Shown in pieces: positions 17,319 through 19,122 of a DNA stretch of 23,804 nucleotides (within the stretch, counting starts at the first letter, position 1; every line of letters begins with the position of its first letter). The stretch lies in IMG/VR virus record IMGVR_UViG_3300027917_000176, positions 1 to 23,804 of that record; one strand, 5' to 3'. Under the pieces are notes generated by a model. That model was not told where the DNA came from. It worked only from the letters and a program-made list of their open reading frames with translations, and did not search any database. This stretch comes from a virus. The translations under genes and the position numbers were made by a program.

Positions 17319-17809
17319 CAGTCGTCACGGCTCCAGCGCACTCGACCTTCGCTGACGCGCAAGATGAACTTGGCATCACCCTCCCTGCGGACACGGAGAT
17401 TCACCACGTGGCTGTCAGGCAAGGCGATGATGGTTTGCTCCATCTCCCGCATCAGAGTGTGGAAGGTACGACTAAGCTCCTTGAACTCTGCCGTGTAATC
17501 GGGACAATCGCAAGGTTCGGGAACGGGGATCTCTCGAATCGCCCGAGCAAGGCTCTCGAGCCGAAGATTGTGGTCGGGCACTGTGACCTCTGGGATCTCA
17601 CCCAGTGCCCGAACCACTTCCTCGCGTAGCTCAGTGACGGTTGACGACAACGCGAGGATCGAGGGAGCAGGATCAATCATCTCTTCCTCCACGATTCGCT
17701 GAGTTTGCTTCTCGACGATTCGGGTGGTGACTCCTGCGGTAATGGCGCTGGTTCCGGTGATGAGAACCATGAACTGCCACCAGATGATTCGCGCTGTCGT
17801 TGCCTTCAT
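17318..17809 (-). CDS. N-terminally anchored membrane protein with coiled-coil domain
   Basis: A 163-aa protein. Residues about 8-27 ('IIWWQFMVLITGTSAITAGV') form a membrane anchor. The rest is charged, with two helices of similar pattern ('VVRALGEIPEVTVP', about 65-78, and 'LARAIREIPVPEP', about 87-99), a 'CDC' (100-102) and a further helix ('EFKELSRTFHTLMREMEQ'). It ends with a beta-like 'HVVNLRVRREGDAKFILRV'. One anchor plus a coiled coil outside the membrane resembles an i-spanin, but the protein is long and could instead be a superinfection-exclusion or envelope-stress protein. Start overlaps the HTH gene stop by one base (TAATG), end overlaps the next start (ATGA). Confidence 0.65.
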   Translation of the reverse strand: MKATTARIIWWQFMVLITGTSAITAGVTTRIVEKQTQRIVEEEMIDPAPSILALSSTVTELREEVVRALGEIPEVTVPDHNLRLESLARAIREIPVPEPCDCPDYTAEFKELSRTFHTLMREMEQTIIALPDSHVVNLRVRREGDAKFILRVSEGRVRWSRDD

Positions 17810-18144
17810 TACGCCACCATTGCCTTCCTGACTTCGTTGGCAAGAGCCCGAAGTTCGGTGATGGACTGGACTCCGATGCGACCGAAGAGGTAGTCGAGTG
17901 ACACCTCATACAGATCGGCGAATCGTACCAGGTTCCAGATCGTGGGAAGAGTCACACCGTTGTACCAGTTGTACACAGTGTGTGGGTGGAGCTTGAGGGA
18001 TTCCGCTGCTTCGCAACACTCCGCCCACTCGCCTTTCTCCTTGGCGTAGGGTTTCATCACCATGCGGATGCGGGAACCGACCTTGGTGCGGAACTCGCCG
18101 GGGATGCGCTTGCTCCCCTGGGGCACTCCTCTTCGCGCACCCAT
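17809..18144 (-). CDS. Helix-turn-helix DNA-binding protein
   Basis: A 111-aa protein from the ATG that overlaps the lipoprotein stop (TGATG); a GTG one codon earlier is better spaced from GGAGG and could be used. A basic N-terminus ('RIPGEFRTKVGSRIRMVMKP') is followed by a Cro/XRE-like helix-turn-helix at about 42-72 ('ECCEAAESLKLHPHTVYNWY', 'NGVTLPTIWNLVRFADLYEV') with the family-typical 'SLDYLFGR' after it. It probably binds operator DNA. It is located inside a membrane-protein operon, so it could regulate that operon or the micropeptide array upstream. No palindromic operator was found right before it. Confidence 0.75.
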   Translation of the reverse strand: MGARRGVPQGSKRIPGEFRTKVGSRIRMVMKPYAKEKGEWAECCEAAESLKLHPHTVYNWYNGVTLPTIWNLVRFADLYEVSLDYLFGRIGVQSITELRALANEVRKAMVA

Positions 18145-18467
18145 CACCAGTTGCCTCCTGGGCCACCACCCACAAGGTCGCATGAGAGCATGCTTCCTCG
18201 GGGACCAGGAGTGTAGCACTCCTCCGCGAGCGTGAGTCCACAATGGCGCACGTACCAACGGCCATCATCGTGGGTCCAGTGCCAGCATTCGCTCTGGCTG
18301 CCGTCTTTGTTGAGCGTCATGGCGTCCCAGGCTTCGGGCTCTGAGTCGAAGCGGACACCATCGACGTACCACATGTCGGTCGTCTGCTCCACGGCTGGCT
18401 CGGTCACATCAGAAGAGCAACCGGCAAACAGTAGCAGAACAGCGAGAATTGGGAGAACGTTCTTCAT
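18144..18467 (-). CDS. Phage lipoprotein with four conserved-looking cysteines
   Basis: A 107-aa protein with a well-placed AGGAG site. The N-terminus is a lipoprotein signal peptide: 'MKNVLPILAVLLLFAGCSSD', lipobox LFAG-C with Cys17 as the modified residue and Ser after it, which fits outer-membrane sorting in Gram-negative bacteria. The mature part has Cys61, Cys76, Cys84 and Cys96, which could form two disulfides, and Trp-rich 'CWHWTHDDGRWYVRHCG'. That makes a compact periplasmic domain, unlike typical proline-rich o-spanins. A role in superinfection exclusion, as for the T5 Llp lipoprotein, is a reasonable guess; an o-spanin role is the alternative. Confidence 0.78.
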   Translation of the reverse strand: MKNVLPILAVLLLFAGCSSDVTEPAVEQTTDMWYVDGVRFDSEPEAWDAMTLNKDGSQSECWHWTHDDGRWYVRHCGLTLAEECYTPGPRGSMLSCDLVGGGPGGNW

Positions 18468-18552
18468 GATTTACTCCTGTGGGGATTGGTTTGATTCGGT
18501 GGACAGGCAGGTCGCCCCACGCCATACCCACCTGCCCACCTTTGATGCGGCA
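18468..18552 (-). promoter_or_regulatory. Leader between micropeptide array and lipoprotein, with hairpin
   Basis: These 85 bases carry the lipoprotein ribosome binding site and an imperfect hairpin: GGCAGGT (18506-18512) pairs with ACCTGCC (18530-18536), and outer GGTG/CACC pairs add to it across a small bulge. It could act as an attenuator or processing site between the array and the lipoprotein. No convincing promoter was recognised. Confidence 0.4.
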
Positions 18553-18612
18553 CTAACGCCGCAACCACCAGAAGATGTCGGCTCCAAGCACGACATCGAT
18601 GATGAGCTTCAC
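18553..18612 (-). CDS. Membrane micropeptide 1 of 4 (DIFWW family, 19 aa)
   Basis: A 19-aa peptide, MKLIIDVVLGADIFWWLRR, from a GTG start with GGAGG five bases upstream. It has a hydrophobic stretch (residues 3-10), then the shared ending Ala-Asp-Ile-Phe-Trp-Trp-Leu-Arg-Arg. It is the most downstream of four related tiny genes, and its ending uses CGGCGT where the other three use CGGAAG for the last two residues. The ribosome binding site lies in the loop of a small hairpin. The peptide should insert in or lie on the inner membrane with its basic end in the cytoplasm. Function unknown. Confidence 0.75.
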   Translation of the reverse strand: MKLIIDVVLGADIFWWLRR

Positions 18613-18632
18613 GATTCCCTCCTCGGGAGATC
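18613..18632 (-). promoter_or_regulatory. Hairpin at ribosome binding site of micropeptide 1
   Basis: GATTCCC (18613-18619) pairs with GGGA (18625-18628) and, past one bulged base, ATC (18630-18632). The 5-nt loop is on the minus strand GAGGA, part of the Shine-Dalgarno site, so the structure may modulate ribosome access. Folded by eye. Confidence 0.4.
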
Positions 18633-18652
18633 GAGTGATTAGAACACGTGGC

Positions 18653-18724
18653 CTACTTCCGGAGCCACCAGAAGATGTCCACGCCCAACGCGAACAAGGC
18701 AGCGATGTAGTGTCCGTACTCCAT
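18653..18724 (-). CDS. Membrane micropeptide 2 of 4 (DIFWW family, 23 aa)
   Basis: A 23-aa peptide that starts MEYGHYIAALFALG and ends VDIFWWLRK. The ATG has the site TAGGTGA six bases upstream. It is four residues longer than its relatives at the N-terminal side of the hydrophobic core. The shared ending has Val in place of Ala before Asp. The acidic N-terminus, hydrophobic middle and Arg-Lys end give an N-out, C-in topology by the positive-inside rule. Its ribosome binding site forms one strand of a perfect seven-bp stem (next entry), so its translation may be specially controlled. Confidence 0.78.
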   Translation of the reverse strand: MEYGHYIAALFALGVDIFWWLRK

Positions 18725-18730
18725 CGAATC

Positions 18731-18770
18731 TCACCTACCTTGGTTCCGTGCCAAGTCGACACTTAGGTGA
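18731..18770 (-). promoter_or_regulatory. Shine-Dalgarno-sequestering hairpin before micropeptide 2
   Basis: TCACCTA (18731-18737) and TAGGTGA (18764-18770) are perfectly complementary, and CTTGG (18739-18743) with CCAAG (18751-18755) form an inner stem. On the minus-strand RNA, UAGGUGA at 18737-18731 is the ribosome binding site itself, six bases from the start codon. The structure would hide the site unless opened by a protein, an antisense RNA or translation through the region. Confidence 0.55.
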
Positions 18771-18784
18771 TTAGCTGCCCTATC

Positions 18785-18844
18785 CTACTTCCGGATCCAC
18801 CAGAAGATGTCAGCACAGACGAAGTAGGATTTGATCCAGTCCAT
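18785..18844 (-). CDS. Membrane micropeptide 3 of 4 (DIFWW family, 19 aa)
   Basis: A 19-aa peptide, MDWIKSYFVCADIFWWIRK, with GGAGG five bases before its ATG. It shares the M-(D/E)-(W/Y) opening with micropeptides 2 and 4 and the Ala-Asp-Ile-Phe-Trp-Trp-Ile-Arg-Lys ending with the family; Ile replaces Leu. It has the only cysteine in the family (residue 10). The hydrophobic core is interrupted by Lys5, so an amphipathic, surface-lying helix is also possible. The 90 bases upstream hold an imperfect hairpin near 18878-18901 and no other ORF. Confidence 0.75.
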   Translation of the reverse strand: MDWIKSYFVCADIFWWIRK

Positions 18845-18937
18845 CTGTCCCTCCATTCATGTCGGCTTCGGGCAGATCCCGGTCAGAGAGTACTGGCCGG
18901 GAAGCGGATTTATGGTGGATAGGCAGACCTGACCTGA

Positions 18938-18997
18938 CTACTTCCGAAGCCACCACCAAATGTCGGCAGCGAGGAAGACGCTGATCAGGTAATCCAC
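18938..18997 (-). CDS. Membrane micropeptide 4 of 4 (DIFWW family, 19 aa)
   Basis: A 19-aa peptide, MDYLISVFLAADIWWWLRK, from a GTG start. Upstream is GGAGGTGAT, a near-perfect match to the anti-Shine-Dalgarno sequence, overlapping the stop of the 39-aa gene before it. The ending carries three Trp in a row (Trp replaces Phe). Its core codons differ from the other copies at synonymous positions (ATT for Ile, CTT for Leu), which supports selection on the peptide. It is the first of the four to be transcribed. Confidence 0.78.
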   Translation of the reverse strand: MDYLISVFLAADIWWWLRK

Positions 18998-19002
18998 GGA
19001 TA

Positions 19003-19122
19003 TCACCTCCCTCCGAGCAACTCAGCGATGATGACAACAGCCATGACCGTGAGCCACACTTTGAAGAACTTCGACCGAACCACGTTCTCCGCGACAGCTT
19101 CGTAAAGGCTATTGTACCTCAT
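19003..19122 (-). CDS. Small membrane protein (39 aa) leading the micropeptide array
   Basis: A 39-aa protein. A polar N-terminal half ('MRYNSLYEAVAENVVRSK') is followed by a membrane segment ('FFKVWLTVMAVVIIAELL', about 19-36) and a short 'GGR' end. The ATG overlaps the stop of the upstream gene (ATGA), and GGAGG is ten bases upstream. Its last codons and stop overlap the strong ribosome binding site of micropeptide 4, suggesting translational coupling. It lacks the DIFWW ending, so it is not a fifth family member, but it shares the small-membrane-protein character. Confidence 0.68.
   Translation of the reverse strand: MRYNSLYEAVAENVVRSKFFKVWLTVMAVVIIAELLGGR

Follow-up and report, generated by a model that had tools for sequence, protein, structure and literature searches.

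A family of DxxWW micropeptides, arrayed in a phage genome and encoded beside a PDZ-GAF-SpoIIE phosphatase gene in two bacterial phyla

CydX, KdpF and AcrZ are co-encoded micro-subunits of membrane proteins, and lambda CIII, a phage product, and SpoVM of B. subtilis modulate a membrane enzyme as very small peptides at the membrane surface. Type I toxins of the Ibs/Ldr kind are hydrophobic peptides of 18-35 amino acids (aa) that occur as tandem repeats, and LdrD ends in a WW-basic tail. Here we describe the DxxWW micropeptides, four of which are encoded as an array in the IMG/VR virus record IMGVR_UViG_3300027917_000176 (positions 1 to 23,804, the whole stretch analysed, called the window below). 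Although the preliminary description of this DNA had presented them as phage peptides, most members that we found are bacterial chromosomal genes, either syntenic with a membrane phosphatase of the PDZ-GAF-SpoIIE type (family F1) or in loci with a cyclic di-GMP (c-di-GMP) riboswitch; the family is not phage-specific, and a phage-only family is ruled out. Micropeptides encoded next to a partner are known from other systems; what is new here is the partner itself, how extremely small the peptides are, and their arrays in phages. We tentatively propose a previously unseen module of a 15-24-residue membrane micropeptide and a PDZ-GAF-SpoIIE phosphatase in two phyla, with sigma-54 or c-di-GMP wiring elsewhere, that may have been hijacked by phages.

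Like CydX, KdpF and AcrZ, the peptide is hydrophobic, tiny and kept next to a single large membrane protein; unlike them, it has its own promoter-like site, sometimes an inverted orientation, a signalling phosphatase as partner, and arrays in phages. We know of no sequence similarity between the DxxWW peptides and CIII or SpoVM. F1 shares a SpoIIE/PP2C domain with the SiaA-type biofilm phosphatases and the SpoIIE family (with a weak NCBIfam match to SiaA) but adds an extracytoplasmic PDZ domain, a GAF domain and the micropeptide neighbour. The SHP octapeptides of streptococci are C-terminal and start with Asp or Glu (DILIIVGG; PMC3679016), and the XIP pheromones carry a double-Trp motif (PMC5131902). 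SHP/Rgg and ComS/XIP resemble our loci in having a very short hydrophobic precursor, a fixed C-terminal module and a gene adjoining the sensor. They differ in phylum, in sensor (cytosolic Rgg, as against a membrane PDZ-GAF-SpoIIE protein) and in sequence, which is unrelated beyond the D and WW. The likeness lies in architecture, and cleavage and export of the DxxWW peptides are hypothetical. The micropeptides had been called a new family, and this stands: Pfam, PHROG and NCBIfam gave no family above chance. The motif strings were not found in the open literature, nor was anything found there for F1 terms combined with Krumholzibacteria.

The four window genes lie on the minus strand and are listed in order of transcription.

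18938..18997, minus strand: micropeptide 1, MDYLISVFLAADIWWWLRK, i.e. (M)DYLISVFLAADIWWWLRK; GTG start, 19 codons, then TAG
18785..18844, minus strand: micropeptide 2, MDWIKSYFVCADIFWWIRK; ATG start, 19 codons, then TAG
18653..18724, minus strand: micropeptide 3, MEYGHYIAALFALGVDIFWWLRK; ATG start, 23 codons, then TAG
18553..18612, minus strand: micropeptide 4, MKLIIDVVLGADIFWWLRR, i.e. (M)KLIIDVVLGADIFWWLRR; GTG start, 19 codons, then TAG

The interval (18553-18997), the TAG ends and the residues of these open reading frames (ORFs) had been read correctly in the preliminary description; so had their lengths, which differ in order only, 19, 19, 23 and 19 codons being the order of transcription. 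Two of the four start with GTG (micropeptides 1 and 4) and two with ATG. Each had been assigned its own Shine-Dalgarno (SD) site. Purine-rich SD contexts were indeed found at all four, three of them strong (GGAGGGAGGTGATATCC-GTG for micropeptide 1, overlapping the end of a small ORF upstream; GGAGGGACAG-ATG for micropeptide 2; GAGGAGGGAATC-GTG for micropeptide 4) and one only moderate (GGTAGGTGAGATTCG-ATG for micropeptide 3, i.e. GGTAGGTGAG). The core GAYATHTKSTGGTGG occurs four times in 23.8 kb, compared with 0.00 in 100 shuffles, and always in the frame ending at TAG. Repeat detection also found the four copies, as 40-nt units with 70-78% DNA identity to the reference copy, and the synonymous codon changes described earlier are present among them. 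The four ORFs are confirmed as real, far beyond chance.

We scanned IMG/VR with degenerate codon patterns for D-I/L-F/W-W-W-x-R-K/R and defined members as ORFs of 14-24 aa with an SD, a hydrophobic leader, invariant D..WW, [LIM][RK], 0-2 further residues and a stop; all four window ORFs fit this definition. Such a six-frame search for the C-terminal motif and stop had been suggested at the outset, and it succeeded: a hydrophobic leader followed by D-[I/L]-[F/L/W]-W-W-[L/I]-R(K/R)-stop was found in bacteria and in about 20 other phage contigs, where the motif closes a short, SD-led ORF (for example MDLVILAIFVADIFWWLRK in L003, MEKFWLAIALIDLFWWLRK in L013 and MHYEIFLGLALIDLFWWLRK in L024; L007 holds two copies). 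When the stop codon was omitted from the pattern, nearly all additional matches lay in frames lacking a start codon, which places the motif at the C-terminus; the phage member L036, with four residues beyond the motif, is an exception. An Asp-free pattern served as a built-in negative control and gave 14 more loci, none of which showed the features of true members (start codon, SD, short hydrophobic ORF), indicating that the Asp is required. Permitting Lys at the Arg position yielded no additional viral matches. Phage copies were found at varied sites, beside genes judged from their sequences to be of terminase type (L006, L007, L013, L015) or beside early enzymes (L016). Long phage forms place a signal peptide or exported leader ahead of the same tail (L006 and the following): in L001 and L005 a typical signal peptide ends in AVAKA, directly before DIFWWIRK, and the leaders of L025, L004 and L021 resemble signal peptides.

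Among 116 distinct ORFs, Asp was encoded by GAC in 60 and by GAT in 56, six Leu codons and all six Arg codons were used, and the stops were TGA (52), TAG (44) and TAA (20). Since the synonymous codons are all used, selection acts on the peptides rather than on DNA or RNA, as had been argued from the array. The search pattern itself accounts for part of the invariance of D and WW in this set; loci anchored on F1 provide the independent test described below. The last residues vary (LR, LRK, LRR, LKKR, LRD, LKD). Some members have only 14-16 residues, which places them among the shortest conserved bacterial proteins, and gene callers easily miss such ORFs. An invariant Asp, a double Trp and a basic end after a hydrophobic stretch suggest a membrane-embedded or interfacial peptide, in line with the membrane-seeking character proposed before. 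The four array genes belong to a real family of membrane-seeking peptides. A stable topology with the C-terminus inside, also proposed, is doubtful in view of the 14-16-residue members and of the signal peptides or long exported leaders ahead of several phage motifs.

The same pattern was applied to bacteria, with one genome per species and taxonomic labels taken from the record titles of metagenome-assembled genomes (MAGs). It gave 42 stretches. Where these held a proper ORF, the genome in most cases belonged to Krumholzibacteriota or Eisenbacteria, was one of a few Patescibacteria or was an unlabelled MAG; the first two, both little-studied phyla, have a single copy per genome. The upstream gene belongs to F1 in 21 loci. 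F1 proteins consist of a membrane anchor, an extracytoplasmic PDZ domain resembling those of RseP, DegP and SpoIVB, a multi-helix membrane domain, a GAF domain and a SpoIIE/PP2C phosphatase; their catalytic Asp residues are conserved, and the PDZ region has a conserved G-[F/M/L]-x-[V/L] loop.

We then fetched loci by F1 homology alone, within the phylum to which G001 belongs (the Krumholzibacteriia genome from which L049 comes). One of the 50 loci was cut by a contig end. In all 49 testable loci a D[L/I][F/L/W/Y]WW peptide was found within about 800 nt of F1, on the same strand in 47 and inverted in two, at F1 identities to the query between 100% and about 26%. Of the peptides at these loci, the shortest are MLPIFLIIDLLWWLK, MKQINLIDLLWWLRR and MSWIYLLDLLWWLRR. 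In Eisenbacteria the peptide likewise adjoins F1. With a relaxed pattern, 60 of 80 genomes of G001's phylum were positive (3 control hits), as were 24 of 47 genomes of the Eisenbacteria phylum (2 control hits). In genomes below the F1 cut-off the peptide stands beside a more diverged F1; in one of these (L230) it ends in LRD, and at L229, where the F1 match lies at the cut-off, in LKD. The gene next after the micropeptide in Krumholzibacteria often belongs to a TlpA/DsbD-type thioredoxin family, F0 (L041, L042, L043, L045, L062, L069, L073, L077). About 50-200 nt after F1, L173 and L180 share a highly similar stretch, GGACCAG.CGGACTACATTGCGTTACGTG...CACGATCGCGCAGTCCG, that looks like a structured RNA.

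The Krumholzibacteria ORF stands alone, with an SD (GGAAAGGGGGG) and 21-22 codons followed by an intrinsic terminator; compensatory changes are seen in its stem. Of 53 distinct gaps, 24 contain a sigma-54-like site (about CGGYMC-N5-YTTGCW) 8-21 nt past the F1 stop; within a clade, its distance from the peptide hardly changes. Scores of at least 13 were reached by 43% of gaps and by 4% of shuffled gaps. Judged from these signals, the peptide gene probably forms its own transcription unit, with a sigma-54-like promoter and a terminator.

In Patescibacteria-type genomes the context is different. Six of seven such loci (L039, L058, L061, L066, L075, L076) have a c-di-GMP-II riboswitch close to the peptide gene, usually in the order riboswitch, receiver-like protein (F4), peptide, and three of the riboswitch loci hold two peptide copies. 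No link between Patescibacteria and c-di-GMP-II riboswitches was found in the literature searched. Each lineage thus couples expression of the peptide to signalling systems. A conserved non-coding stretch, ..CACTCTAAGGAGTG.CCAACCGGG.., directly follows each Patescibacteria micropeptide ORF (in L058 after 5938 and 6178; in L074 below 3059) and has no Rfam match at gathering score. A family of secreted lipoprotein-like proteins with a glycine-rich, bacteriocin-like C-terminus (F39; L058:6329-7036, L074:2167-2943) is also encoded near the gene.

The explanation we favour, with a probability somewhat short of even, is that the micropeptide regulates F1-type membrane signalling and is carried by phages in extra copies. 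Its active part would be the C-terminal D-[I/L]-[F/L/W]-W-W-[L/I]-[R/K] module, borne on a hydrophobic leader that is short and can be exchanged. The one chromosomal copy in Krumholzibacteriota and Eisenbacteria would be a dedicated partner of F1, most likely a small membrane-embedded regulator or ligand made from its own promoter; strict synteny with a membrane signalling phosphatase suggests that it modulates F1, and we infer that the two meet at the membrane. Most likely, a gene of this kind entered the phage and was then multiplied to four copies within a block on the minus strand. These copies would push F1, or an equivalent membrane-signalling protein of a presumed host, in a direction useful for infection, and phages with amplified arrays or signal-peptide versions would rewire host stress or lifestyle decisions. 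The array thereby suggests that viruses exploit host signalling via peptides too small for annotation, and the pairing with F1 across two phyla makes function directly testable.

Several points weigh against this explanation. No convincing F1 or SpoIIE homologue was found in the peptide-carrying Patescibacteria, so F1 is not the sole or universal partner, and an obligate F1 ligand everywhere is ruled out. Synteny could stem from shared regulation instead of direct contact. The variable C-terminal ends weaken the case for a classical PDZ C-terminal ligand. The evidence is comparative throughout, and translation of the ORFs is predicted. Finally, the window tail protein is 33% identical to Krumholzibacteria prophages and 31% to Pseudomonas phages; the two are equally distant, which makes host assignment through this protein uninformative.

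The best rival, on account of its architecture, is a pheromone precursor, although we consider it unlikely. Here the leader would be removed and the C-terminal 7-8-mer D[I/L]FWWLR(K) exported and sensed by F1, for instance through its extracytoplasmic PDZ domain, phages carrying mimics or decoys. The alignment and the codon-count set do show short hydrophobic precursors with a conserved C-terminal 7-8-mer, a variable leader and a gene beside the putative sensor, and the parallels with SHP (PMC3679016) and XIP (PMC5131902) point the same way. Cleavage of the L001/L005 signal peptide would release exactly DIFWWIRK, with similar leaders in L025, L004 and L021. However, the module is near-identical across phyla, whereas pheromones diversify for specificity. 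Leaders of 7-8 residues are too short as export signals, the 14-16-residue members also count against this model, the C-terminal ends vary, and neither a maturation protease nor an importer is linked. No Rgg/ComR (RRNPP) regulator was found beside the peptide, the neighbour being the F1 phosphatase or the receiver-like protein.

We hold it to be just as unlikely that the peptide's target in the membrane is widely conserved, as FtsH would be (cf. lambda CIII, SpoVM), with expression under a regulator that differs from lineage to lineage. This would account for the F1-less Patescibacteria, the differing control regions (sigma-54-like site, c-di-GMP-II riboswitch) and the diversity of the phages. 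It leaves unexplained the peptide gene beside F1 in 49 of 49 loci, even at about 26% identity; it comes without target evidence, and under the strict pattern the family is rare outside these lineages.

Less probable still are tandem type I toxins or lysis-type membrane-active peptides. The preliminary description had pointed to Ibs-type toxins and to a role in lysis or exclusion, and size, hydrophobicity, tandem repeats and Trp-rich basic ends, including the WW-basic tail of LdrD, are shared with Ibs/Ldr. Unlike these, the DxxWW peptides have an invariant Asp, and their bacterial copies are single, clade-wide, vertically kept beside F1 and equipped with strong SDs, unlike mobile toxin-antitoxin loci. 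At the window array no antisense RNA or promoter was found (one promoter match, at chance level; no RNA family in an Rfam search), and the array lies on the strand opposite to the endolysin. No known toxin family matched above chance in Pfam, NCBIfam or PHROG. Neither proposal is supported; bacterial copies syntenic with F1 or in c-di-GMP-riboswitch loci argue for signalling rather than a toxin or lysis factor.

It is very improbable that the ORFs encode leader or arrest peptides, or that they mark an RNA element whose encoded peptide is irrelevant: tandem Trp codons right before the stop recall TrpL/TnaC and the SD can pair with the DLF codons in Krumholzibacteria, but every site varies in synonymous codons, the terminator there directly follows the ORF with F1 upstream, which speaks against control of a co-directional downstream gene, the window spacers (the last hairpin apart) fold no better than shuffles, and the SD-codon helix of a supposed SD-sequestering RNA shows almost no compensatory changes.

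The array is part of a minus-strand block and is flanked by a small membrane ORF and a lipoprotein gene.

19003..19122, minus strand: small membrane ORF upstream, MRYNSLYEAVAENVVRSKFFKVWLTVMAVVIIAELLGGR; its 3' end carries the SD of micropeptide 1; an earlier start is given in the ORF list
18468..18552, minus strand: spacer after micropeptide 4 with a strong hairpin without U tract; -32.9 kcal/mol, z -1.78
18144..18467, minus strand: lipoprotein gene downstream, 107 aa, predicted, with an LFAGC lipobox (from the ORF list; no PHROG match)

F1 is not among the ORFs listed for the window, and the F1 neighbour holds for bacterial members only. No sigma-54 site was found near 18.5-19.0 kb, window-wide matches being not clearly above chance. 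No relatives of the window tail protein were found in viral_contigs, and no match to the window DNA in INPHARED. The hairpin between micropeptide 4 and the lipoprotein gene has a long stem (GGUGGGCAGGU...ACCUGCCUGUCCACC, 18468-18552). A helix-turn-helix regulator with a weak PHROG repressor match is encoded at 17809-18258, shortly downstream of the array and lipoprotein gene and on their strand.
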